From positions 1-31,994 of the IMG/VR virus record IMGVR_UViG_3300044970_002139: a DNA stretch of 31,994 bases; one strand, 5' to 3'. Shown in pieces: positions 2,932 through 19,298 of this stretch. A program made the translations under genes and the position numbers. The notes under the pieces are model-generated. The model had not been told where the DNA came from. It did no database searches and saw only the letters and a program-made list of their open reading frames with translations. The stretch's first letter is position 1; the number at the start of each line of letters is the position of its first letter. The DNA is from a virus.

Positions 2932-4677
2932 ATGCCATACAAGTTCAACCCATTCACCGGCACCCTGGATGTGGCCGGCGGCGATGCAACCACTTCCCTC
3001 CTGAACCTGAAAGGGACGGTTGCCAACGAGGCAGCGCTGCCGAGCAGCGGCAACACGATTGGCGATGTCTGGCAGGCCGAGGACACCGGCGAGTTTTTCG
3101 TCTGGGATGGGACTGGCTGGGATGGGCTTGGAGACTTTGGCGCCAGCACCGATAGCTTTGCTACGACCGACTCCCTTTACGAAGGAAGCTACCTCTATGC
3201 AATGACCGATCCCCAGGATCGCATTGGCTTCGCTATCAAGCCAGATGGCACTTTTGTCGTTGGCAAGGCTATTGAAACGAACATCACTGGTACCGCTGCA
3301 AGCGCGAACACGGCCTCTCGTGTTGACTTTACAGGTGGTGACACACAATCAGCAGAGCAGCTTTACGCCGAGACGATGGAATGGGCTGTCGTAGATAGCG
3401 ACAACCGCATTGCGCTTGGCATCAAAAAGTCGGGAGCGCTCGTCATTCCGTTAGTGCAGCCTTATGTGACCTTTGGCCAGGCTCATGGCATATCTGGTCT
3501 TTACTCTGTTGTCGTAGACGGGTCTGGAAGAGCGCAAATCCAGCTGGGGGGCAACAATGCGGTCGTCACGCTGACAGCCGAAGGAAATAATTGGGCGCCG
3601 GTAGTCACTGCAGAAACACCCCAGAGAATCGCTTTTCAATCCGATCGAGTGGATGGCGTTCGCTACTGGGCGATGAACTCCGACGGCACTCGACAAGCTC
3701 GCGCAATCCCAGACAAGAACGACATTACGTTCTGGGGTGACTCGATGACGCAAAGGCTGCAAGGCTATGGGCACCTTCCAGGGCTTCTGCCTGGTCGCAC
3801 CATCACTTACAACGCACTCGGTGGAACATCGGTAGAGCACATCATCGCAAGGCAGGGCGGCGAAAACGCCACCTGTACGATTCCCTCGGGCAGCGTCCCA
3901 GCCAGTGGGTCGGTGGCACTGCAGAACGTCTGGCCCAGTCTCGGCTATCACGCCGGAACGCTGACCGTTAATGCCACGTACTCTTACCTCGTCACCATTG
4001 CGGGAGTGCAAGGCACACTGACGAGCACAACAAACTCCAATAGCCAAGCGGACTACACGTTCACCAGGTCAAGCTCAGGAGCAGCTGTCTCGGTTACAGG
4101 CCCAGTCGAGATTGTTGTTCTGTCGAACATAACGCAAGGCAGCTTTGGATTTAGCAAAAGCAATACGGCTGTATTTTGGATTGGAACTAATCCGATAAGC
4201 AGGCTGCCTTCTAGCAGCTATGACCCCGGAACTGGTAATGGTATCTACTTTAAGTCTCCGGCTACCACATACGACCCATCAAGCAGCAGCGCTGTCCAAG
4301 CAAGAACCGAAGCTCTTACTCAAGCTCTGATCAACAGAGTCGAGAACCTCGATCGGCATGTGCTGATTGTCGGCGGCTTTGCTGGAGAAGGGCAAGTCTG
4401 GTCGTCGATCACTGAAAAGGCAGCGATGGACGCAGCGTTCAGTACATTCTCAAAGCACTGGTACGACCTGCGTGCCGACTTCATCAGCACTTGCAAGACT
4501 TGGCTCCAGACCAACCACCCAGCGGTCTATGCCAACTGGGCCGCCACCGATGACGCTCATGTGGCAAATGGCGCAAGTCCTCCGATCCTTCGGGAAGACG
4601 GGATTCACCTCAACACCTACGGCTCCCAGCTGGCGTCACAGCTGATCGCTAGTAGGCTGTCCTCAAAACAATGGTAA
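2932..4677 (+). CDS. Tail fibre with C-terminal SGNH/GDSL-type hydrolase domain
   Basis: A 581-residue fibre whose N-terminus (MPYKFNPFTGTLDV) resembles the attachment start of other phage fibres, followed by a glycine-rich beta region to about residue 255. From about 260 to the end it has the signature of an SGNH/GDSL esterase. The nucleophile block is FWGDSMT, with the serine at 271. The C-terminal block is DGIHLN, with catalytic-type Asp556 and His559. A GG(F)xGEGQ segment at about 480 may provide oxyanion-hole residues. Such domains in tail proteins usually deacetylate surface polysaccharide during adsorption. The substrate is unknown. It sits between small fibre-cluster genes and a LamG-like gene, so these probably form one adsorption apparatus. 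Confidence 0.75.
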   Translation: MPYKFNPFTGTLDVAGGDATTSLLNLKGTVANEAALPSSGNTIGDVWQAEDTGEFFVWDGTGWDGLGDFGASTDSFATTDSLYEGSYLYAMTDPQDRIGFAIKPDGTFVVGKAIETNITGTAASANTASRVDFTGGDTQSAEQLYAETMEWAVVDSDNRIALGIKKSGALVIPLVQPYVTFGQAHGISGLYSVVVDGSGRAQIQLGGNNAVVTLTAEGNNWAPVVTAETPQRIAFQSDRVDGVRYWAMNSDGTRQARAIPDKNDITFWGDSMTQRLQGYGHLPGLLPGRTITYNALGGTSVEHIIARQGGENATCTIPSGSVPASGSVALQNVWPSLGYHAGTLTVNATYSYLVTIAGVQGTLTSTTNSNSQADYTFTRSSSGAAVSVTGPVEIVVLSNITQGSFGFSKSNTAVFWIGTNPISRLPSSSYDPGTGNGIYFKSPATTYDPSSSSAVQARTEALTQALINRVENLDRHVLIVGGFAGEGQVWSSITEKAAMDAAFSTFSKHWYDLRADFISTCKTWLQTNHPAVYANWAATDDAHVANGASPPILREDGIHLNTYGSQLASQLIASRLSSKQW

Positions 4678-4681
4678 CTCA

Positions 4682-5497
4682 ATGACTCTCATTACCCGAC
4701 TTGCGTCATCCTTTACAGACATCACGATTCCTAAGTTGGTGAAAGATCCTGTTATCCCCAGCGCTGGCGCTCAGCTACTGGTTGACATGAAGTCCGTTGG
4801 CACCTGGCCCTCGCAAGGCTCGTCACTTACGACCGGCAGTCAGCTGTTCAGCCTCGTGGACAACAACTGGCCGGCGCTCGGCGTGCTCGGCAATCACACC
4901 TACAACGCTACGCGTGGTGGCTTGCAGTCCAGTGGCTCAGGAGACAGCGCCTCTGGACTGTGGCTGTCTAATACGTCTGTTGGCATTTTTGACAACGATA
5001 CCCACGCTTGGGCATTTACTTTTTGGTTCTACCGCGGGGCTGCAACGAGCGGGTCGTTTATGCTTTCGCGCGATCGCGCTTTTGAGTTAACATCTAACGG
5101 CTCAGGTGGTCCTTGCACGCTTAGCATCTTTGGAGCAAGCGGCACCGCTAATAACGCTTTCTTGGTCGGGGCGAACTACAGCGTTCTTCGCAGGATCGGC
5201 TTTACCGTCTACCAAGACAGCAGCAACGTATGGAAATACCGCACCGTTGAGAACAACACTATTTCCGCCGAAAGCAACCTATCCGGCGCAACCAACACGG
5301 CTGGAGGAGCTGGGCTGAGGGCTTCGGCTTCTGGCACCACTCGTCCTCGCGTGTTTCCCGTGCCTTCCGGATATGCCCCAGTCCCCACAGACTATCTGTT
5401 CTACCGCACCTACGCAGAGAACCTCACGCTGAGCGAACGCACCTACCAGCAAGTGTTTGATGCTGACTGGGCACGCGGCAATGGAAGGTACAGCTAA
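4682..5497 (+). CDS. LamG/concanavalin-like adhesin, probable tail-fibre protein
   Basis: A 271-residue protein beginning five bases after the esterase-fibre stop. The central part (residues about 75-240) has the pattern of a LamG/concanavalin A-like jelly roll: WAFTFWFYRG, followed by a strand with FMLSRDRAFEL, a hydrophobic strand around RRIGFTVYQDSSNVWKYRTV, and a closing segment with LSERTYQQVFDADWARG. These domains bind glycans. No catalytic motif is visible. As the last large gene of the fibre block, it is likely a carbohydrate-binding appendage or receptor-binding tip. Confidence 0.6.
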   Translation: MTLITRLASSFTDITIPKLVKDPVIPSAGAQLLVDMKSVGTWPSQGSSLTTGSQLFSLVDNNWPALGVLGNHTYNATRGGLQSSGSGDSASGLWLSNTSVGIFDNDTHAWAFTFWFYRGAATSGSFMLSRDRAFELTSNGSGGPCTLSIFGASGTANNAFLVGANYSVLRRIGFTVYQDSSNVWKYRTVENNTISAESNLSGATNTAGGAGLRASASGTTRPRVFPVPSGYAPVPTDYLFYRTYAENLTLSERTYQQVFDADWARGNGRYS

Positions 5498-10750: not shown

Positions 10751-11292
10751 GCACGTTTGCCGCCCAATCCCCCACAGGCCCACCCGAAACGCACTCTGAT
10801 CTCTTACTGGAGACCCAAAGCAGATTCACAACCGGGGGAGGAAGAAGGACAGGGGACCACTGCCACCACGCTGCCTCCCACCCCACCTCCAGCCGGGCTA
10901 CCACCCTGCCACGACCACATCCCCCTCACTACCCACGCCCGCCCTCCGGTGGGGTGGCCGCACCTCCCTGCACCCCTGCAGATCACACCCCACACACCCG
11001 GGCCGGTCCCTGCAGATCCCGCGTCATCCGCTGAGGTCCCGTTTTGGGGTCGCGTGATCTGGTGGTGTCCCCCACGCGAGGCGCAGCCGCTTCCCCCCTA
11101 TGGGGGGTCGCTCTGCTCCCCTGGGGCTGCCGCTGGGGCCCTGGGGGCTGCCCTGGTGGGCTGGCTGCTGCTGCGCTGCACCCTGGGGCCTGCCCGGCCA
11201 GTGCTGGCGGGCCACTGCTGCGGATGCGTGATCCGCTGCGCTGGGCTGGTGGGGTGAGGGCGGGCAGCTGGGGCAACTGGTCCTCTCCTCTT

Positions 11293-11398: not shown

Positions 11399-11677
11399 AT
11401 GTCTGCAGCAATGCAGATCACCACCACCGAACCTGTACAACCGATGACCACGACGACCGCGCCGGCGCCCGCCCTGGGTGCTGGCGACCTTGAGCAACGG
11501 CTGGCGTTCTGCCTGTCCGCTGCAGTAGCGGCAGGCCGCTGCCACCAGTCGCGAGCCGACCGAGCGCTGAGCCAATGGCTGATGCGCCCGGTTGAGGCCT
11601 CAGGGCTGATGGAGCGGTTCGCCCACGTCAGCGCCGCTCACCGCGGGCTGGTGCTGACCCGCTGGAGGCCTTCATGA
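11399..11677 (+). CDS. Hypothetical protein, first gene of early operon
   Basis: Ninety-two residues from an ATG; a second in-frame ATG follows at codon 5. The first 30 residues are Thr/Pro/Ala-rich and probably disordered. Residues about 30-90 look helical (DLEQRLAFCLSAAVAAGRCHQSRADRALSQWLMRPVEASGLMERFAHVSAAHRGLVLTRW). No known motif. There is no Shine-Dalgarno; the leader is CAC/CCA-rich as in the rest of this operon. The end overlaps the next gene by ATGA. Confidence 0.55.
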   Translation: MSAAMQITTTEPVQPMTTTTAPAPALGAGDLEQRLAFCLSAAVAAGRCHQSRADRALSQWLMRPVEASGLMERFAHVSAAHRGLVLTRWRPS

Positions 11678-11811
11678 CTCGCACGACTGCCGCGGCCCTG
11701 GTGCTGGCGGCGCTGGGCATGGCAGCCGCCGCCCTGATGCCACCGGCGCCAGAGCTGCCCGGGACGGCCCGGCCAGCAACGCCGCACCACTGGCAGCACG
11801 CCAGCCACTGA
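11674..11811 (+). CDS. 45-residue membrane or exported peptide
   Basis: Begins at an ATGA overlap with the preceding stop, which argues for coupled translation. Residues 2-22 (TRTTAAALVLAALGMAAAALM) form a short basic N-terminus plus hydrophobic helix, a signal peptide or membrane anchor. The remainder is Pro/His-rich. Too short for the usual gene finders. A host-takeover peptide is possible but unsupported beyond location. Confidence 0.5.
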   Translation: MTRTTAAALVLAALGMAAAALMPPAPELPGTARPATPHHWQHASH

Positions 11812-11889
11812 CGACAGCCCGGAGCCCTCACCGGCTCCCTGCTGCCCTCAGCAGCACACCACCACCACCACCACCACCACCACCGACCG
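11812..11889 (+). ncRNA. Two-hairpin plus (CAC)9 leader element, copy 1
   Basis: Fills the whole gap between a stop codon and the next ATG. Hairpin A pairs GGAGCC (11821-11826) with GGCTCC (11833-11838) over a six-base loop. Hairpin B pairs CTGCTG (11839-11844) with CAGCAG (11849-11854) over CCCT. The 3' side of A abuts B with no gap. Nine uninterrupted CAC triplets (11857-11883) then run to within six bases of the ATG. The same arrangement occurs at two other places. Confidence 0.7.
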
Positions 11890-12078
11890 ATGACCACGAC
11901 ACTCACCGCACTGGTGCTCGCCCTGCTCCTGCTGCCCCTGATCGTTCTGTTCTGGGCCTGCGAGAGCCGGCAGCAACGGGCCCGCCGCTGGCGCTCCTAC
12001 GGGATGACGCAGCAGGCGATCGCAACCCGGCTGGGCTGCAGCCGGACCACAGCCCGCCGACTGCTCGCCGCGGCCTGA
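11890..12078 (+). CDS. Membrane-anchored mini helix-turn-helix protein
   Basis: Sixty-two residues. The first 23 form a hydrophobic transmembrane helix (LTALVLALLLLPLIVLFWAC), followed by a very basic junction (RQQRARRWRSYG). The C-terminal 28 residues (MTQQAIATRLGCSRTTARRLLAA) are a clean helix-turn-helix of the resolvase/Hin or sigma-like type. A membrane-tethered HTH of this size could hold DNA at the membrane or act as a tiny regulator. It follows hairpin element copy 1, and no Shine-Dalgarno is present. Confidence 0.6.
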   Translation: MTTTLTALVLALLLLPLIVLFWACESRQQRARRWRSYGMTQQAIATRLGCSRTTARRLLAAA

Positions 12079-12084
12079 TCTGAG

Positions 12085-12108
12085 CACCGCCACCACCACC
12101 GACGACCG
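12085..12108 (+). promoter_or_regulatory. CAC-rich leader without hairpins
   Basis: The short gap before the next start reads CACCGCCACCACCACC followed by GACGACCG and ATG. It has the CAC tract and the ACCGATGAC start context of the other early leaders but lacks the two hairpins. Confidence 0.5.
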
Positions 12109-12387
12109 ATGACAGCACTTCCAACCATCCACTTGAACGGCACCGGCGCCGAGACGATCGAGCGCGAATACCGAGCCGTTCGCCATGCCGTCCGGCAAGC
12201 CATCGAGACGCTCGAGCAGGCCACCTGCAACCAGCGCGACTACTACACACAGGAGCCGTTCGCCTGGCAGCAAGCCAGGGAGGAGCGACGCCAGGCCTTC
12301 ATGCGCCTAACCGAGGTGATGAACTGGGCCGAGGAGATCGAGGCACACGCGGTCGAAGCGGAAGCAAAGCGCCGCGTGCGCCGATGA
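12109..12387 (+). CDS. Helical hypothetical early protein
   Basis: Ninety-two residues, predicted almost entirely helical and charged (ETIEREYRAVRHAVRQAIETLEQ ... EERRQAFMRLTEVMNWAEEIEAHAVEAEAKRR). The pattern suggests a coiled coil or helical bundle. No catalytic motif or zinc site. It overlaps the next ORF by ATGA. No family recognised. Confidence 0.6.
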   Translation: MTALPTIHLNGTGAETIEREYRAVRHAVRQAIETLEQATCNQRDYYTQEPFAWQQAREERRQAFMRLTEVMNWAEEIEAHAVEAEAKRRVRR

Positions 12388-12560
12388 CACGCCACCGATA
12401 CCACCAGGGGGCCTTAGCGGTCCCCGCCGCACAACCCCGCGACTACAGCCCGCCAGAGCTCGAGCTTGCCGGCCCTCAACAGGGCTGGCTGGCCCTTGAC
12501 GGTGGGGCCCTGGGTCCGCTGTTCAACGACCACACCACCACCACCGAGGCCGACCGATGA
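12384..12560 (+). CDS. 58-residue hypothetical early protein
   Basis: Starts and ends with ATGA overlaps with its neighbours, the main support for it being translated. Composition is Pro/Leu/Gly-rich (SPPELELAGPQQGWLALDGGALGPLF) and near the end it encodes a HTTTT run because a CAC-rich leader for the next gene lies within its codons. No motif recognised; it could be mainly a coupling frame. Confidence 0.4.
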   Translation: MTRHRYHQGALAVPAAQPRDYSPPELELAGPQQGWLALDGGALGPLFNDHTTTTEADR

Positions 12561-12736
12561 CCCACGCCACGGCGCAACGCTGGCGACTGGTCAGCTACCA
12601 CCCGACATGGGGCAGCGACTGGCGCCACTTCGCCACCTACTACGAGGCAATCCAGGCCCGCGCCCGGCTGCTGGCCCTGCCGTCCGACGGCACCGGCTAC
12701 ACGATCGAGCCCTGCCAGCCGGAGGGGGCCCGATGA
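12557..12736 (+). CDS. 59-residue hypothetical early protein
   Basis: Compact basic/aromatic protein (QRWRLVSYHPTWGSDWRHFATYYEAIQARARLLAL) with a fold-like strand-helix-strand pattern, ending in YTIEPCQPEGAR. Coupled by ATGA on both sides. A CACACCACCACCACC tract (12531-12545) lies upstream within the previous gene. No family recognised. Confidence 0.5.
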   Translation: MTHATAQRWRLVSYHPTWGSDWRHFATYYEAIQARARLLALPSDGTGYTIEPCQPEGAR

Positions 12737-12909
12737 CCCGCACCTATCCGCAGTGGTGCCGCTCCCTGTATTGCGGGGAGACGCCATGCCCTGCTGGCTG
12801 CCCACACCTGCCCGAGCTCCAGGAGTTCAGGGCCTGGCAGCAACGCACCAACGCACGCCAGCCGGACCCGATCTGGAGCCCGACCATCTGGCGGGAGGGC
12901 GACCGATGA
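12733..12909 (+). CDS. Small cysteine-rich (zinc-ribbon-like) protein
   Basis: Fifty-eight residues, with four cysteines spaced WCRSLYCGETPCPAGC in the first 25 residues, suited to one zinc or a disulfide cluster. The remainder is Trp/Arg-rich. It is embedded in a string of ATGA-coupled small genes, and the next gene is also cysteine-rich. Likely a DNA- or protein-binding micro-protein; the target is unknown. Confidence 0.5.
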   Translation: MTRTYPQWCRSLYCGETPCPAGCPHLPELQEFRAWQQRTNARQPDPIWSPTIWREGDR

Positions 12910-13202
12910 CAGGCACCACTGACTGTCCGATCTGGCGCAGCTGCGCCGATGGCCGCCCGGACTGGTGGCGACCACTGGCGCCCAACCCATGGCCCGGGGA
13001 TGACAACGCCTACCCGTGCCCCTGGGGATGCAACGGCACCGGCCGCAAACCGGAGTTTGCGCACATCCAGGGGGGCGCCTGTTTCGGCTGCCACGGCACC
13101 GGCTGGATTCTCGGCCGCGGCCACCGCTCCGCACCGATCAAGCGGGGCAACAGCAGCCGCCGCAAGTGGCGGAAGGAAGCCGGCCGGCTGGTGCCGGTGT
13201 GA
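12906..13202 (+). CDS. DnaJ-type zinc-finger small protein
   Basis: Ninety-eight residues. Two half-motifs, CPWGCNGTG (about 38-46) and CFGCHGTG (about 59-66), resemble the CxxCxGxG repeats of DnaJ zinc domains; the first has one extra residue between cysteines. A further cysteine pair lies near the N-terminus. The tail is strongly basic (KRGNSSRRKWRKEAGR), which suggests nucleic-acid contact. There is no J domain. Coupled to the previous gene by ATGA and followed directly by hairpin element copy 2. Confidence 0.55.
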   Translation: MTGTTDCPIWRSCADGRPDWWRPLAPNPWPGDDNAYPCPWGCNGTGRKPEFAHIQGGACFGCHGTGWILGRGHRSAPIKRGNSSRRKWRKEAGRLVPV

Positions 13203-13274
13203 CGACAGCCCGGAGGGGGCGCCAGCCCTCTCCCTGCTGCCCTCAGCAGCACACCACCACCACCACCACCCCCA
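13203..13274 (+). ncRNA. Two-hairpin plus CAC leader element, copy 2
   Basis: Hairpin A pairs GGAGGGGGC (13212-13220) with GCCCTCTCC (13225-13233) through nine pairs, one G-U, over GCCA. Hairpin B is CTGCTG-CCCT-CAGCAG (13234-13249). Six CAC triplets follow (13252-13269) and the ATG is five bases later. The opening GACGACAGCCCGGAG matches copy 1. The stem of A differs from copy 1 on both sides while pairing is kept. Confidence 0.7.
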
Positions 13275-14222
13275 ATGACCAAGACCGCAACCAAGACCAA
13301 GCCCAAGGCCCGCAAGTACGACGGGCCCACCCCAGAGGAGAAGCTGGCCGCCGATCTGATCGCCCTGATGGAGCAGGGCATCAACCCATGGCGCCGGCCC
13401 TGGGTCGGGCACAACGGCGAGCACCGCAACCTGGTGACCGGCCACCAGTACCGCGGGGGCAATCCCCTGCTGTTGGAGGTTGGCAACCTGAGCCGGGGCA
13501 ACACGCTGCCGCTGTGGATGGGCGCCGGCCAGGCCAAGGCGAACGGCTGGCACCCTGCCAAGGGCAGCAAGGCCGCCCGCATCGCTCAGCCGCGGCCCGT
13601 CAAGTTCGAGGACCCCGACAAGGAGCCCGGCGAGATCAGCAGCAGGGATAAAAACTTCATCGTCTATAAGCTGGTGCCCGTGTTCAATGCCGCCGACCTG
13701 GTGGGCGTTGACGAGGACAGCGCCGCAGCCCTGGCCCGCCGCATCGACGAGGCAACCGGCAGCATCGAGCACCGGCCCGAGCCGGAGCGTCTGGCGCACG
13801 CCGAGGACGTGTTGGAGGCCTGGCCCGTGGAGGCCCGCACCGGCGGCGCCCTGGCCTGCTACAGCCCGGCCCTGGATCGGATCTCCCTGCCCGAGCCGCG
13901 AGCGTTCGACAGCCGCGAGCACTTCGCCGCCACCTGGGCCCATGAAGCGATCCACAGCACCGGCCATAAGGACCGGCTGGCGCGCGACCTGTCGGGCAAG
14001 TTCGGCACACCCTCCTACGCCCGGGAGGAGCTCATCGCCGAGATGGGCAGCGCGATCCTCTGCCGCCGGCTGCAGATCGGCTCAGAGCTCAAGGACCACG
14101 CCGACTACCTGGGCGGCTGGTGCCAGATCCTGCGCGAGGACCCGCGGGCTGTGCTCAAGGCCCTGGGCGCTGCCAAGAAGGCCGCCGATCTGATCACCCC
14201 CGAAGCGATCGAGGAGGCCTGA
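13275..14222 (+). CDS. ardC: ArdC-like antirestriction protein (ssDNA-binding plus zinc metallopeptidase-like)
   Basis: A 315-residue protein. The N-terminal half has the ArdC-N (DUF1738) pattern: LAADLIALMEQGINPWRRPW, YRGGNPLLLEV, LPLWMGAGQAKANGWHPAKGSKAARI. The C-terminal half has a zincin signature, HEAIHSTGH, with His223, Glu224 and His227, as in ArdC/TraC-type proteins. Known members protect incoming DNA against restriction and bind ssDNA. An early antirestriction gene is analogous to T7 gp0.3 but of an unrelated family that is commoner on plasmids and integrative elements. It is preceded by leader copy 2 rather than by a Shine-Dalgarno. Confidence 0.85.
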   Translation: MTKTATKTKPKARKYDGPTPEEKLAADLIALMEQGINPWRRPWVGHNGEHRNLVTGHQYRGGNPLLLEVGNLSRGNTLPLWMGAGQAKANGWHPAKGSKAARIAQPRPVKFEDPDKEPGEISSRDKNFIVYKLVPVFNAADLVGVDEDSAAALARRIDEATGSIEHRPEPERLAHAEDVLEAWPVEARTGGALACYSPALDRISLPEPRAFDSREHFAATWAHEAIHSTGHKDRLARDLSGKFGTPSYAREELIAEMGSAILCRRLQIGSELKDHADYLGGWCQILREDPRAVLKALGAAKKAADLITPEAIEEA

Positions 14223-14225
14223 TCC

Positions 14226-14423
14226 ATGCCCTGCCCCTGCTGCGATTGCATCAACACCCACGGGGACGACCCGGCCGCCTGGCTCAGCCAGTGGCCGGCC
14301 GGCGCCGCCTGGCATCCAGACCTGAAGGCCCACCTATGCGACGGCTGCGCAGAGGAGCGCCGGAGCTGGGCCGAGGAGGAGCCGGACCCCTACGACCTGC
14401 CGCCCTATGCGGACGGCTACTGA
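14226..14423 (+). CDS. Small zinc-binding protein
   Basis: Sixty-five residues starting three bases after the ArdC-like stop codon. CPCCDC at the N-terminus and CDGC at about 39-42 could bind zinc. The rest is acidic and Trp/Pro-rich (SWAEEEPDPYDLPPYADGY). Probably co-translated with ArdC. No family recognised. Confidence 0.5.
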   Translation: MPCPCCDCINTHGDDPAAWLSQWPAGAAWHPDLKAHLCDGCAEERRSWAEEEPDPYDLPPYADGY

Positions 14424-14493
14424 TCCCATCCCGGAGGGCTGCGGCCCTCCCTGCTGGGTTCACCAGCACACCACCACAACCACACCCCGAGCC
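14424..14493 (+). ncRNA. Two-hairpin plus CAC leader element, copy 3
   Basis: Hairpin A pairs GGAGGGC (14433-14439) with GCCCTCC (14444-14450) over TGCG. Hairpin B pairs TGCTGG (14452-14457) with CCAGCA (14463-14468) over GTTCA. Compared with copies 1 and 2, B has changed on both strands yet still pairs, a compensatory difference. A less regular CAC tract (CACCACCACAACCACACC) leads to the ATG. Confidence 0.7.
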
Positions 14494-14682
14494 ATGCTCA
14501 CCATCAACACCACAGAGGCGGCCCTGCTGGCTGCCCTGCTCCGTCCAAGGGTCACAGCGCTCAGCGAACTGTTGGCCGCTCAAATCCAATGCCTGCCGCC
14601 TGGCGACTCCAGCTGGGCGGACACTGAGGACCAGCTGGAGACCGCCCGGGCCGCCCTCTCCAAGGTGGAGGCGATCCGATGA
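14494..14682 (+). CDS. 62-residue hypothetical early protein
   Basis: Starts at the ATG after leader copy 3. Two helices (TEAALLAALLRPRVTALSELLAAQIQCL and WADTEDQLETARAALSKVEAI) flank a short PPGDSS turn, a helical-hairpin layout. No membrane segment and no known motif. Ends in an ATGA overlap with the next gene. Function unknown. Confidence 0.5.
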   Translation: MLTINTTEAALLAALLRPRVTALSELLAAQIQCLPPGDSSWADTEDQLETARAALSKVEAIR

Positions 14683-15299: not shown

Positions 15300-15617
15300 A
15301 TGGATCTCGCTTCACTGGCCCTGGCTTTAGGCACTTTTGCCACCCAGGACCCCACCCGTTTTCCGCTGCACCATGCACGCCTGTTTCTTGAGGTTGCCCT
15401 TAATGAGCCGGCCACCTTCGAGCACCTGGAGCAGGCCCTCAACCTGACCAACTCCAGCGTCTCCCGATCGGTCGCCGCCCTCAGCGATCGCAACCGCCAC
15501 GGCGACCGCGGCTATCGGCTGCTCACCGTGGAACGCGACCCCGAAGAGGGGCGCCGCTTCCTGGTCCGCTTGAGCCCCAAAGGCCGCCAGCTGCTCAAGC
15601 AGTTGGAGCGGATCTAA
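15300..15617 (+). CDS. Winged-helix regulator (MarR-like) 2, candidate lysogeny repressor
   Basis: A 105-residue protein from the ATG that directly follows the palindrome; a GTG at 15285 would lie inside the operator and is less likely. MarR core: ARLFLEVALNEPATFEHLEQALNLTNSSVSRSVAALSDRNRHG, then wing RLLTVERDPEEGRRFLVRLSPKGRQLLKQLERI. The LSPKGRQLL signature is characteristic of the family. It is immediately upstream of the integrase and separated from it by a CAC-rich leader. It is the best candidate to bind the TAGG-N5-CCTA sites, an inference from position. Confidence 0.7.
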   Translation: MDLASLALALGTFATQDPTRFPLHHARLFLEVALNEPATFEHLEQALNLTNSSVSRSVAALSDRNRHGDRGYRLLTVERDPEEGRRFLVRLSPKGRQLLKQLERI

Positions 15618-15643
15618 ACACCACCACCACCACCTGAACCACC
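15618..15643 (+). promoter_or_regulatory. CAC-rich leader of the integrase gene
   Basis: Five CAC triplets (15619-15633) follow the regulator's stop codon, then TGAACCACC and the ATG. It has no hairpins and no purine-rich ribosome-binding site. Confidence 0.5.
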
Positions 15644-16630
15644 ATGACCGGATCAGTTCGCCGCACGGCGGACGGCTGGATTGCCGATGTCACCATCGGC
15701 GGCACCCGCCGCACTGCCAAGCGCAAGACCAAGGCCGAAGCCATCGAGGCCAAGCGCCAGCTGCTGGAGCTCTTGGTAGCCCGTGGCACGGGTGAACCCC
15801 AGGGCATCACCATCACCGACGCCCGGGCCCTCTCGCTGCGGATCCGCTGGGCTCGCAAGGCCTTCGAGCGGACCGCTGCCATCTACAGCCAGGCCGCCGT
15901 GGATCACTTCGGCCCGCTCACCCAGCTGGGCACCATCACCGCCCCGGCGGTGGAGGAGTGGCGACAGCTGCTGCTGCGCCGCGGCAACCGGCCCAGCACC
16001 ATCAACGCCAAGGTCAGCTGCCTGCGGGCCATGTTCAGCGATGCCGTGCTCCATGGGCACTTGGCTGCCATCCCGGCCCTGCCCGGGCAGCTGACGAAGA
16101 AGAACAAAAAGGACCGGGTGTTCAGCCCTGCTGAAGTCGCGGGCTTCTGTGAAATCTTCCGAGGCCAAGGCGAACCCGCCGCGGCCGACCTGTTCATCTT
16201 CCTGCTCGAGAGCTGCTGCCGGTGGGGGGAAGCGGAACGTCTGCGTGGGGGTGATGTGGACGTGGATCGCAGGCGCGTCAGCTTCTGGGAAACCAAGAAC
16301 AACCGGGCCCGATCCGTGCCGCTCACAAGGCGGGCGATGGATGCCCTGCTGCCCCACCTGCCGGCGGTGCCGACGCACAGGGTCTGGCCCTACCGCTACA
16401 GGCAGTTTGCCTGGCTGTTCAGCTCAGCCAAGGAACGGCTCGGCATCGACGATCCGGCCCTGACGATCCACTGCACACGGCACACCTGCGCGAGCAAGCT
16501 GGCCACCAGCGGGATCCCCCTGCACCAATTGATGGCCTTTGGGGGCTGGACATCGCTCCAGAGCGTGCAGCGCTACTTGCACCTCCACACCGAGGCCCTG
16601 GCCAGCTGCGTGGCAGCGCTTGAGGCCTGA
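15644..16630 (+). CDS. int: Tyrosine recombinase (phage integrase)
   Basis: A 328-residue integrase. The N-terminus (SVRRTADGWIADVTIGGTRRTAKRKTKAEA) resembles an arm-binding domain, followed by a core-binding SAM-like region (about 65-150). The catalytic domain shows the first Arg in CCRWGEAERLRGGDVD (Arg193), the HxxRH box HCTRH (His276, Arg279), a GGW tract (His/Trp position) and the nucleophile in SVQRYLHL (Tyr311). All expected catalytic residues are present. It drives site-specific integration and lies next to the attP-like region, in the int-attP-RNA polymerase order I recall for cyanopodoviruses. Its start follows a CAC leader. Confidence 0.93.
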   Translation: MTGSVRRTADGWIADVTIGGTRRTAKRKTKAEAIEAKRQLLELLVARGTGEPQGITITDARALSLRIRWARKAFERTAAIYSQAAVDHFGPLTQLGTITAPAVEEWRQLLLRRGNRPSTINAKVSCLRAMFSDAVLHGHLAAIPALPGQLTKKNKKDRVFSPAEVAGFCEIFRGQGEPAAADLFIFLLESCCRWGEAERLRGGDVDVDRRRVSFWETKNNRARSVPLTRRAMDALLPHLPAVPTHRVWPYRYRQFAWLFSSAKERLGIDDPALTIHCTRHTCASKLATSGIPLHQLMAFGGWTSLQSVQRYLHLHTEALASCVAALEA

Positions 16631-16898: not shown

Positions 16899-19298
16899 TT
16901 GTCTGCATCCTGCAATTCGTCCACACCCTCGGAGGACCGTCAGCGGCATCTGGAAACGGCAGCCCAGGAGGCCGCCACCAACCGCTCACGGATCGCCCGG
17001 GCCAAGCTCAAGCAGCAGGAGAAGGAGAGCGCCACCGAATACGGGCGGGCCCTGTTCCAGGCCCACGGCGAGCGTGTGGCGCTGGCGCTGGAGCACAAGC
17101 TGGGCAAGGCGCTGAACCGCGACGAGGTGGCCGGCCCGTATCACGCCGGCATGTGGCTCCTGTTCCAGTTGGGCGACAAGGGGCCCCGCTCGATCGCTGC
17201 GGTCGCCCTGGGGGTGGTGCTCGATCGGATCAGCAAGCCCACCAGCCACCGGGCCATGGCATCTGCCATCGGCGCAGCGATCGAGGCAGAGATCAGGGCG
17301 CTCCCGATCGAGGACCGCGGCCAGGACCTGCTCCGCATCGCCCGGCGCCGCCACGGCAAGGGGCTCACATCGAAGGCGCGGCTGGAGCAGCTGCGCATCC
17401 AGCTGGAGCCCTGGTGTGCCGCCGATCGCTTCCAGGTGGGTGCCTTCCTGCTGGAGATCATCACCACCGAAACCGAGCTACTGCGAACGACGACCAAGCC
17501 AGGGCGCCGCGGCCTGCAGCTTGAGCCGGCGCCCGTGGTGGCCGAGATCATCGCCGCCCACCCGCCGACACCCGCCAAGGCTCGCAAGCTGCCCATGCTC
17601 ACCCCGCCCAGGCCGTGGGAGGGGATGACGGGCGGCGGGCACCTGAGCAACACCGAGCCGCTGGTGCGCAGCCGCAAGGGGCATCCGATCGACTACCTGA
17701 CCACCCAGGCCCTGCAGCCGGCGCTGAAGGTGGTGAACACCCTCCAGGACCAGGGGCTGATGCTGGATCCGTGGATGGTGGGGAACCAGCGGATTGCCTG
17801 GGATGCCAACCTGCGCGGCCTGTTCCCGCTGCTGCGCGATCCGGCCGAGGCCCCGCCCAAGCCGGTTGAGCTGGTGGGCAAGGAGGCCATGGCCCGCTGG
17901 CATCGGCAGGAACAGGCCTTTCACCGTGACCGGATCGAGGGCCGGGAAGCCCGCAGCCGCATCGAGGGATCCATCCGCCAGGCCGAGCAGCTGGCCGGCG
18001 AGCCGCTCTGGTTCAGCTGGTGCATGGACATCCGGGGGCGCGTCTACACCGCGAACCGGCTCACCACCCACCAGGGCCCCGACCACGAAAAGGCGCAGAT
18101 CCTGATCGCCAACGCCAAGCCGTGCGATGACCGGGCCGCCGACTGGATCCTCAAGGCAGCGGCGATCCACTGGGGGACCAAGGGCAGCTGGGCCGACCGG
18201 CTGCAGTTCGGCAGGGATCAGATGGAGCGCATGCTGGCTGCGGCCGAGGACCCCCTGGAGCGGGTGCATCTGTGGCGTGATGCCAAGGAGCCGTGGCAAT
18301 TCCTGGCCTGCTGCCGAGCGCTGCAGCGGTGGATCGAGGACCCCAACCAGCCCATCCATCAGCCGGTGCGGTTGGATCAGACCAGCTCAGGCCCTGGGAT
18401 CATCGGCGCCCTGCTGCGGGATCGAGGCCTGGCCCGGGCGTGCAACCTGGTCGGCACCACCCGCCACGACCTCTACAGCGAGCTGGCCCAGGAGGTGATG
18501 CTGCTGCTGCGCTCTGATCTGGAGGCCGGGGATGCCAAGGAGCAGCGGCTGGCGGGCTGGTGGCTGGAGCGCGGCATCAGCCGGGCCATGGCCAAGGTGC
18601 CCGTCATGTCCACCGTCTACGGAGCGAAGCTGCTGGGGGTGACCGAGCAGCTGGTGGCCCTGCTGGATGACGCTGAGGGCACCGTGTCGCTGGGGGTGCT
18701 GGAGCGCGAGCGGCTGATACCCGCCCGCTACCTGGCGCGGAAGTTCGGCCTGGCCGTTGGCGCCCGGCTGGCTGGCGCAGTGGCATTTCAGGCCTGGCTG
18801 CGGGCGGTGGTGCGCTGCTGCAGTGCCAAGAACCAGCCGCTGCGGTGGACAACACCGATGGGGCTGCCCATCCAGCTGGGCAAGGAGCTCACCGCCAGCA
18901 GCGGCATCAAGTCGCTGCTGCATGGCACCCGCCGCTGGCAGACCCTGCTCGATGCACCACCACCGGGGAAGCTCAGCGCCGTGGAGACCGGCCGGTCGAT
19001 CACCGCCAACTTCATCCACAGCTTTGACGCTGCCTTGGTGTGGGCAATGGTCTGCGATGGTGCAGACAAAGGCCGCACGGTGCTGCCCAACCACGACTGC
19101 TTCGCGGTGCCGCCCTGCGATGCCGAGTGGCTGCACAGCACGTTGCTGTGGCGCACCGGGGAGCTCTACCGGCCGGACTGGCTGGCTGAGATCACGGCCG
19201 AAATCCAGGCCACGGCTGGGGCGAGGCTGCCGGCGCCGCCGATGGTGGGGACGCTGGAGGTGGGCGAGATCGGCGGGAACCCCTATCTGTTCTCCTAG
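16899..19298 (+). CDS. T7-like single-subunit DNA-dependent RNA polymerase
   Basis: Transcribes phage middle and late genes. With the TTG start it has 799 residues, against 883 in T7. Catalytic positions are intact: palm Asp in RLDQTSSGPGI (Asp493, T7 Asp537), Lys566 and Tyr574 in RAMAKVPVMSTVYG (T7 Lys631 and Tyr639, same spacing), and His732-Asp733 in LPNHDCFAVPP (T7 His811-Asp812). MDIRGRVYTANR matches T7 MDWRGRVYAV. Homology to the T7 N-terminal domain extends upstream of any in-frame ATG, so a non-ATG start is needed. The TTG is the only standard alternative seen, with no Shine-Dalgarno near it; a GGAGGA at about 16936 precedes only CTG. The gene begins inside the attP arm region. Confidence 0.95.
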   Translation: MSASCNSSTPSEDRQRHLETAAQEAATNRSRIARAKLKQQEKESATEYGRALFQAHGERVALALEHKLGKALNRDEVAGPYHAGMWLLFQLGDKGPRSIAAVALGVVLDRISKPTSHRAMASAIGAAIEAEIRALPIEDRGQDLLRIARRRHGKGLTSKARLEQLRIQLEPWCAADRFQVGAFLLEIITTETELLRTTTKPGRRGLQLEPAPVVAEIIAAHPPTPAKARKLPMLTPPRPWEGMTGGGHLSNTEPLVRSRKGHPIDYLTTQALQPALKVVNTLQDQGLMLDPWMVGNQRIAWDANLRGLFPLLRDPAEAPPKPVELVGKEAMARWHRQEQAFHRDRIEGREARSRIEGSIRQAEQLAGEPLWFSWCMDIRGRVYTANRLTTHQGPDHEKAQILIANAKPCDDRAADWILKAAAIHWGTKGSWADRLQFGRDQMERMLAAAEDPLERVHLWRDAKEPWQFLACCRALQRWIEDPNQPIHQPVRLDQTSSGPGIIGALLRDRGLARACNLVGTTRHDLYSELAQEVMLLLRSDLEAGDAKEQRLAGWWLERGISRAMAKVPVMSTVYGAKLLGVTEQLVALLDDAEGTVSLGVLERERLIPARYLARKFGLAVGARLAGAVAFQAWLRAVVRCCSAKNQPLRWTTPMGLPIQLGKELTASSGIKSLLHGTRRWQTLLDAPPPGKLSAVETGRSITANFIHSFDAALVWAMVCDGADKGRTVLPNHDCFAVPPCDAEWLHSTLLWRTGELYRPDWLAEITAEIQATAGARLPAPPMVGTLEVGEIGGNPYLFS

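Follow-up and report, generated by a model that had tools for sequence, protein, structure and literature searches.

Intercistronic elements in the early region of a cyanopodovirus

The window analysed here, the whole 31,994 nt of IMG/VR record IMGVR_UViG_3300044970_002139 (positions 1 to 31,994), is a contig of a T7-like cyanopodovirus. Three copies of a repeated structured element were found at the places given by an earlier sequence-only reading, each filling the gap between a TGA stop codon and the next ATG. The layout is TGA-N-X6-junction-[hairpin A]-junction-X′6-YUCA-X″-A/C tract-AUG, and the segments can be drawn as two alternative folds, I and II. The features, all on the + strand, are as follows.

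11809–11889 (+), copy 1, from the TGA of ORF 11674–11811 through the A/C tract to ATG 11890
11809–11811 (+), TGA of copy 1, pairing with UCA at 11848–11850
11813–11818 (+), segment X of copy 1 (GACAGC), pairing in fold I with X′ at 11841–11846 (GCTGCC), 5 of 6 positions
11821–11838 (+), hairpin A of copy 1 (GGAGCC..GGCTCC), 6 bp, common to both folds
11840–11856 (+), hairpin B of copy 1 (TGCTGC CCTCA GCAGCA), fold II only
11857–11889 (+), CAC tract of copy 1, unstructured, preceding ATG 11890 without a Shine-Dalgarno sequence
11890–12078 (+), gene after copy 1, 62-aa HTH_23 protein
13200–13274 (+), copy 2, starting at TGA 13200–13202 of ORF 12753–13202, with a CAC tract up to ATG 13275
13204–13251 (+), segments of copy 2: X 13204–13209 (GACAGC), hairpin A 13212–13233 (9 bp), X′ 13236–13241, hairpin B 13235–13251
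13275–14222 (+), gene after copy 2, ArdC
14421–14493 (+), copy 3, starting at TGA 14421–14423 of ORF 14226–14423, with an A/C tract up to ATG 14494
14425–14468 (+), segments of copy 3: X 14425–14430 (CCCATC), hairpin A 14433–14450 (7 bp), X′ 14453–14458 (GCTGGG), hairpin B 14452–14468
14494–14682 (+), gene after copy 3, 62-aa protein (corrected start, ATG 14494)

An integrase gene lies near the elements.

RNAfold returned the hairpin A lengths proposed earlier (6, 9 and 7 bp) and a hairpin B of 6 bp, with z-scores of −5.0, −3.75 and −2.9 and whole-element minimum free energies of −19.9, −27.8 and −26.1 kcal/mol for copies 1, 2 and 3. The hairpin B of copy 3, described as changed on both sides and still paired, carries one compensatory pair at the top of the stem (C-G to G-C), seen in the register TGCTG[C/G]..[G/C]CAGCA. 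None of the three starts has a Shine-Dalgarno sequence before it, as had been noted. Other parts of the earlier description needed revision: the gaps are indeed fully occupied, but each copy includes the stop codon as its first three bases instead of starting after it, and the two-hairpin layout missed the 5′ part, a segment before hairpin A that matches the 5′ arm of hairpin B by complementarity. The CAC tract is present in the copies but is not specific to them, since it also precedes early genes that lack the hairpins (12079–12108 and 15615–15643), and is found at early-gene starts in general.

A family anchored to stop codons

The carriers are viruses of freshwater Synechococcus, and the element sits between their early genes. 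A looser first grammar gave thousands of chance matches and was then tightened; the strict grammar gave 173 matches in 2.33 Mb (almost all phage DNA) and none in the reversed sequence or in three block-shuffled versions, so the matches are not due to chance. Distinct copies number 103, from 57 phage loci that include the isolate Synechococcus phage S-SRP02; its RNA polymerase (RNAP) is 47% identical and its copies have the same layout with different stems. Scans of IMG/VR by sequence pattern returned true copies together with chance matches in coding DNA, and the true ones were separated by context. A covariance model and a phage search had been suggested by the sequence-only reading, for which an absence of further covarying copies in related phages would have been adverse; relatives do carry them. 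The model, built from 10 copies, recovered 24 of them from 12 phage sources with E < 1e-6 as the cut-off. In its alignment, 8 of 15 pairs had changed on both sides and the covariation score was 0.339, against 0.117 after shuffling, strongly supporting the proposed selection on RNA structure.

When 84,980 species genomes of bacteria and archaea were scanned with a pattern, there were 18 matches, none in cyanobacteria and none satisfying the strict grammar, and all were read as chance. Blastn searches with single copies matched only S-SRP02 among phages, and nothing among plasmids. A relaxed scan of S-EIVl gave no copy, although the same scan also missed the known copy of G014, which has a 4-nt junction. 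Against Rfam release 15, the window had no match at the gathering score and the region 11780–14520 none at E <= 1, while seven relatives gave two tRNA matches only. The element is a new RNA family.

Its position relative to genes is tightly defined. In 56 of 61 copies the upstream gene stops at the element's own TGA, at a fixed offset, and in 60 of 61 the upstream ORF ends at the element or at most 10 nt before it, the exception (L010) having only a 4-codon open frame. Two contigs of a second lineage (L208 and L214) have an ORF ending at a TAA about 23 nt upstream, and there the TGA of the element is not the stop. The use of TGA is in itself weak evidence, because most stops in S-SRP02 are TGA in any case (36 of 46); the fixed offset is the stronger point. 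Hairpin A begins 12 nt (n = 58) or 13 nt (n = 45) from the T of the stop, a spacing that is part of the grammar, so that stable structure starts 9–10 nt past the stop codon, close to where the shielded edge is reported to lie in ribosome termination structures (RTSs; PMC7518266). A co-directional ORF follows every one of the 61 copies, 19–63 nt on, and the A/C tract up to the start codon measures 19–35 nt in all copies but one (L111, 63 nt). The upstream ORFs are unrelated ordinary genes, mostly of 40–330 aa.

In contigs anchored by the phage RNAP gene, all 50 same-strand copies lie 2.5–5.2 kb upstream of that gene, and no same-strand copy was found downstream of it in 241 kb. The copies separate unrelated early genes, and are associated as strongly with the upstream as with the downstream gene. 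Near-identical elements may share the upstream gene and differ in the downstream one, or the reverse (window 13200 versus L010; window 14421 versus L004). The leader module for initiation or mRNA stability envisaged in the sequence-only reading was thus partly right but incomplete: the element is anchored to the upstream stop, has two exclusive folds, and is intercistronic, not only a 5′ leader.

Two mutually exclusive folds

Segment X′ is complementary to both X and X″, and with two partners for one segment, hairpin B and an extended hairpin A exclude each other. The extended form (fold I) is one long imperfect hairpin of 3 bp, a pyrimidine mismatch, 6 bp, pyrimidine mismatches and 6–10 bp, in which the stop codon is sequestered. 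In fold II, X′ and X″ form hairpin B, directly 5′ of the single-stranded A/C tract and AUG. The AUG and any ribosome-binding site lie outside both folds, a point against the switch proposed below.

Each pairing was recovered from copies selected for the other. Of 76 copies picked solely for the two hairpins, the A/C tract and the ATG, leaving X and the stop unconstrained, 58 (at least 76%) had X and X′ matching at 5 or more of 6 positions, compared with 11.6% of cross-pairs. Conversely, among the 103 copies chosen on fold I only, hairpin B reached at least 5 of 6 pairs in 100 (97%), compared with 131 of 515 control windows. X differs from X″ in 36 of 43 distinct triples while both still pair with X′, and X is therefore not a mere copy of X″. 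The X·X′ covariation score, taken from an alignment that had been fitted to the two hairpins rather than to fold I, was 0.325, against 0.069 after shuffling and at most 0.137 when the segments were slid. Compared across the copies, both pairings have been kept while the sequence changed.

The computed energy of fold I minus that of fold II is +0.5, +0.5 and +1.4 kcal/mol for copies 1, 2 and 3 of the window, and ranges from −10.7 to +2.9 kcal/mol across 61 copies. By these calculations fold I is 3–10 kcal/mol more stable in many copies, and may simply dominate there, which also counts against a switch.

A candidate ribosome-gated switch, its rivals and known systems

We favour, with confidence evenly balanced for and against, the reading of the element as a bistable intercistronic RNA switch in a polycistronic early mRNA, gated by the terminating ribosome. 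The comparative alignments support the two folds, the anchoring to TGA and the 12–13 nt spacing; the gating is what we infer from them. Hairpin A would form in either state. In fold I, X′ would pair with X just past the upstream stop, and the stop codon with the UCA of the would-be loop. A ribosome whose A site holds the stop codon would cover X (nt 5–10 from the T of the stop) and halt at hairpin A, excluding fold I and favouring fold II; without a ribosome, fold I would be possible, and could form first during transcription. The state of the element would then signal whether the upstream gene is being translated, and would set either the start of the next gene or mRNA processing, while the hairpins would keep post-termination ribosomes from drifting into the A/C start region, which lacks a Shine-Dalgarno sequence. 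Our guess is that fold II is the expressed state, because in several relatives the first early gene has a single hairpin and A/C tract, without the X and hairpin A part.

Another role would be that of a constitutive translation insulator, a sequence-defined relative of RTSs, in which post-stop hairpins block ribosome drift, the A/C tract recruits fresh ribosomes and the second fold only adds stability. The onset of structure 9–10 nt past the stop, as in RTSs, and the setting apart of unrelated early genes agree with this, but RTSs are reported to be depleted between genes of one operon (PMC7518266), and the triple complementarity would be unneeded, yet X, X′ and X″ all co-vary; we regard an insulator as unlikely. 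An RNA processing site, as between T7 early genes, seems to us less likely still. Fold I, with about two helical turns and conserved pyrimidine mismatches, would be cut by RNase III or another RNase, giving a 3′ end formed by hairpin A and a protected 5′ end formed by hairpin B with the A/C tract; the copies occur only upstream of the phage RNAP gene, in what corresponds to the T7 early region, and the single-hairpin first genes of relatives resemble a processed mRNA. Cleavage alone leaves the conservation of X″ and the stop-codon anchoring unexplained.

Two further readings are highly improbable. The two adjacent hairpins could bind host RNA polymerase to allow terminator readthrough in the early region, like HK022 put, and the size (about 70 nt), the two stem-loops and the early location fit (PMC9378689), but the element recurs several times within a genome, always between a stop and a start and with freely varying stem sequences, whereas put sites in HK022 are described close to early promoters, with a single one in each operon. 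A recombination site acting at the DNA level (attC-like, or a homologous linker between exchangeable cassettes, with the hairpins as cruciforms) would accord with the near-identical elements that link differing gene pairs and with the integrase gene nearby. Against it, G-U pairs are present in the sense strand, stop anchoring and fixed spacing to the AUG would be unexpected, and attC boxes are absent (GTTRRRY in one of 103 copies). The repeats may themselves give rise to recombination as a side effect.

Three known signals were considered and rejected. The R boxes of integron attC sites (RYYYAAC and GTTRRRY) occur together in none of the 103 copies; an intrinsic terminator is not indicated, with no TTTT after hairpin B in the 103 copies and no terminator at the window elements; and Rho utilisation at the CAC tract was set aside because cyanobacteria, to our knowledge, lack Rho.

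Returning to the proposed switch, we suggest tentatively that it is a new class of cis-acting RNA device, embedded in a stop codon, with the terminating ribosome as ligand, repeated at early-gene junctions and modular across unrelated cyanophage lineages. If so, each junction of the phage operon would tell the next gene whether the preceding one is translated. RTSs and translational coupling are known so far mostly from folding statistics and single operons; here, roughly a hundred covarying copies make up a natural family with two competing conserved helices around a stop codon, in which ribosome-controlled folding between genes becomes testable by simple compensatory mutations. It may show how T7-like freshwater Synechococcus phages organise their early, mostly Shine-Dalgarno-less genes (e.g., ardC), and offers a genetic part that could be reused and whose mutational logic is already at hand.

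Several known systems share some of these features. The RNase III sites of the T7 early region are imperfect intercistronic hairpins, as is the element, which also lies among the early genes of a T7-like phage and for which cleavage is hypothetical; we know of no alternative partner segment or stop-codon pairing in the T7 sites. The cyanophage motifs manA, wcaG and PhotoRC-II (PMC2864571) are also structured RNAs next to genes, but are other motifs, from T4-like or marine phages. HK022 putRNA resembles the element in having two adjacent stem-loops in about 70 nt of early phage RNA; it binds the zinc-binding domain of RNA polymerase β′ so that terminators are read through, it is not tied to stop or start codons, and it is not known to contain a triple-complementary segment (PMC9378689). 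RTSs (Chemla et al. 2020; PMC7518266) likewise place stable mRNA structure just past the stop, at the edge of the terminating ribosome, but they are defined by folding energy, preferred at operon ends and depleted inside operons, and are described as reducing re-initiation on the following gene. The element, by contrast, is a family whose copies covary; it lies between genes of the same direction, has a second fold and leads into a defined start region. Ribosome-controlled attenuators and translational coupling by RNA unfolding (reviewed in PMC12548453) differ in other respects: the upstream frames of the element are ordinary genes (about 40–330 aa) rather than short leader peptides with control codons, there is no terminator hairpin with a U run as output, and the start codon is unsequestered. 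Common to both are mutually exclusive helices, one of which can be blocked by a ribosome on the upstream frame, X of the element lying within the ribosome footprint and both of its pairings being conserved.

Setting and sequence of the copies

The window, 31,994 bases long and itself a virus record of IMG/VR, encodes a head-tail adaptor/portal, a major capsid protein and tail fibres in addition to the integrase and RNA polymerase (RNAP) listed below. Its RNAP is 47% identical to that of Synechococcus phage S-SRP02, a freshwater isolate from Singapore, and the gene content together with this likeness identifies the contig as that of a cyanopodovirus and a relative of S-SRP02. About a hundred related contigs were gathered from IMG/VR by pattern scans and an RNAP-based search. 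Two relatives of the window show weak tRNA family matches (L107, 9828–9884; L123, 5576–5637).

Features of the window
11410–11444, single hairpin and A/C tract before the first early gene
11809–11889 (+), element copy 1
12079–12108, 12530–12556 and 15615–15643, CAC/ACC-rich tracts before hairpin-less genes
13200–13274 (+), element copy 2
14421–14493 (+), element copy 3
15644–16630, integrase
16899–19298, T7-like RNAP (phrog_414)

The three copies lie exactly where a sequence-only reading had placed them, and RNAfold reproduces its hairpin A of 6, 9 and 7 bp, its hairpin B of 6 bp and its unpaired CAC tract (z-scores of −5.0, −3.75 and −2.9). The compensatory change it reported in hairpin B is real and affects one pair. 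The search it proposed for further covarying copies in phages, made with a covariance model trained on ten copies, returned 24 copies at E < 1e-6; 8 of 15 pairs were changed on both sides, and the covariation score was 0.339, compared with 0.117 after shuffling and at most 0.104 with partners slid. When S-SRP02 was left out of training, the top matches in that genome included its two clear copies (E = 4e-4 and 6e-3), the stems of which are entirely different in sequence. What the reading overlooked, and what became visible when diverged copies were compared side by side, is a further segment (X): each copy begins at the TGA of the upstream gene.

Two pairings of one segment

The six bases X following TGA-N can pair with X′, which forms the 5′ arm of hairpin B. 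Since X′ also pairs with X″, the 3′ arm, it has two partners. Fold I (X with X′) extends hairpin A, while fold II (X′ with X″) is hairpin B. The base 3′ of TGA and the one that opens the loop are mostly both C or both T. UCA, complementary to UGA, comes next in the loop of 52 of 61 copies, so that fold I can take in the stop codon. The junctions flanking hairpin A (CC/CT, ACT/TCT, AC/CT or ACC/CCT) are conserved pyrimidine mismatches.

Examples of X/X′/X″ triples
Window: GACAGC/GCTGCC/AGCAGC
Window: CCCATC/GCTGGG/ACCAGC
Related locus L004: ACCAGC/GCTGGT/ACCAGC
Related locus L036: CACCAC/GTGGTG/CATCAC
S-SRP02: CACTGC/GCAGTG/CACTGC
S-SRP02: GCTTGC/GCAGGC/GCCTGC
Related locus L161: CCTCTC/GAGGGG/CCCCTT

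Comparison of the copies shows two predicted, mutually exclusive folds, both maintained, one of which would include the upstream stop codon. When copies were picked by the two hairpins, the A/C tract and the ATG, ignoring X and the stop, X paired with X′ at 5 or more of 6 positions in 58 of 76 distinct matches (cross-copy pairs, 11.6%); TGA stood at the exact offset in 48 of the 76, and several others were the same copies one base out of register. Picking on fold I only gave 103 distinct copies from 57 loci with 29 X/X′ combinations, and hairpin B was paired at 5 or more of 6 positions in 100 of these (control windows, 131/515). The strict grammar for fold I matched 173 times in 2.33 Mb of almost entirely phage DNA, and never in the same sequence reversed or block-shuffled. 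With copies aligned on the two hairpins and not on fold I, X·X′ covariation was 0.325 versus 0.069 when shuffled. X is unlike X″ in 36 of 43 triples, which argues that the two pairings are maintained separately. An earlier X/X′ shuffle is left out of the evidence because its copies had been picked on that pairing.

The energies of the two folds are nearly equal in the window (+0.5, +0.5 and +1.4 kcal/mol favouring fold II), and fold I minus fold II ranges from −10.7 to +2.9 kcal/mol across 61 copies. At L194 (1354–1440) and L213, X′ is AGGAGC and contains a Shine-Dalgarno (SD)-like sequence that either fold would hide.

Stop codons, start regions and neighbouring genes

For 56 of 61 copies the element's TGA is the stop codon of the upstream ORF; the others have a stop 4–10 nt further upstream. 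Hairpin A begins 12 nt from the T of TGA in 58 copies and 13 nt from it in 45, a spacing set by the grammar itself; across copies, this places hairpin A at about the edge expected for a ribosome that holds the stop codon in the A site. In L208 and L214 the element retains its TGA, though a TAA has already closed the upstream ORF about 23 nt before it; this suggests a role for this TGA in pairing beyond that of a stop. A variant copy in S-SRP02 (12522–12592) follows a TAG stop, with about 15 bp of continuous pairing, judged by eye, that includes TAG with CUG; an SD-like GAGGA ahead of the start replaces the CAC tract.

Downstream of hairpin B, an unstructured, G-poor stretch of 19–35 nt (63 nt in one copy) leads to the start codon, and only 6 of 102 starts have an SD. 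Of the leader as first read, two hairpins plus a CAC tract, the hairpins stand, but the tract is not specific to the element, as it also lies immediately 5′ of early-gene starts without hairpins. It is a start region without an SD, general to this phage group. S-SRP02 shows A/C-rich, SD-less starts at several early genes and an SD at many late ones. The first early gene in S-SRP02 and four other relatives (L101, L102, L107, L110) is preceded by one strong hairpin and an A/C tract (10840–10903 in S-SRP02), without the X–A part. The window ORF called from 11399 may truly start at ATG 11444.

A second lineage (GC 0.47; L195, L204, L208, L209, L210, L214), of cyanophages unrelated to that of the window, also has the element; the start region there is rich in pyrimidines and lacks a CAC tract. 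The 80-kb contig G014 of this lineage is S-EIVl-like, and its terminase shares 83% identity with the one encoded by Synechococcus phage S-EIVl. A search of five second-lineage contigs for a T7-like RNAP gave no match, nor did its positive control. S-EIVl itself has, on the minus strand at 3300–5100, two intergenic repeats starting TGATCCGTCAAAGCGGGT right at stop codons; they look structured and represent a different element.

In RNAP-carrying contigs, all 50 same-strand copies sit 2.5–5.2 kb upstream of the RNAP gene, and none was found in 241 kb downstream of it; L144 and L150 have copies on the opposite strand to RNAP. The commonest neighbour gene is ArdC. The copy at 13200 is 98% alike to one in L010 with the same upstream gene and different downstream genes, and that at 14421 is 94% alike to one in L004 with different upstream genes and the same downstream gene. 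Like elements with swapped partners mark points of early-gene exchange, and because swaps occur on either side, the element seems to serve both flanking genes.

Possible function and known systems

A terminating ribosome would cover X, excluding fold I and favouring fold II; with no ribosome at the stop, fold I would be allowed, and it could in addition be the first to form as the RNA is transcribed. A candidate for what the fold controls is how the next gene is translated. Processing of the RNA, comparable to that at early sites of T7, is another candidate, as is insulation like that by ribosome termination structures (PMC7518266). A put-like antiterminator (PMC9378689) or an attC-like recombination site is less likely.

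Rfam 15 gave no match in the window and, on seven relatives, two tRNA matches and nothing else. The words hairpin, promoter, terminator and intergenic are absent from the text of the S-SRP02 genome paper (PMC8790148), and no such element was found in the open literature, a coverage that takes in few subscription journals. A single pattern scan across 84,980 species genomes returned no cyanobacterial copy matching the pattern. Having neither leader peptide nor terminator, the element falls outside the ribosome-controlled attenuators, but it shares with them the use of competing helices.
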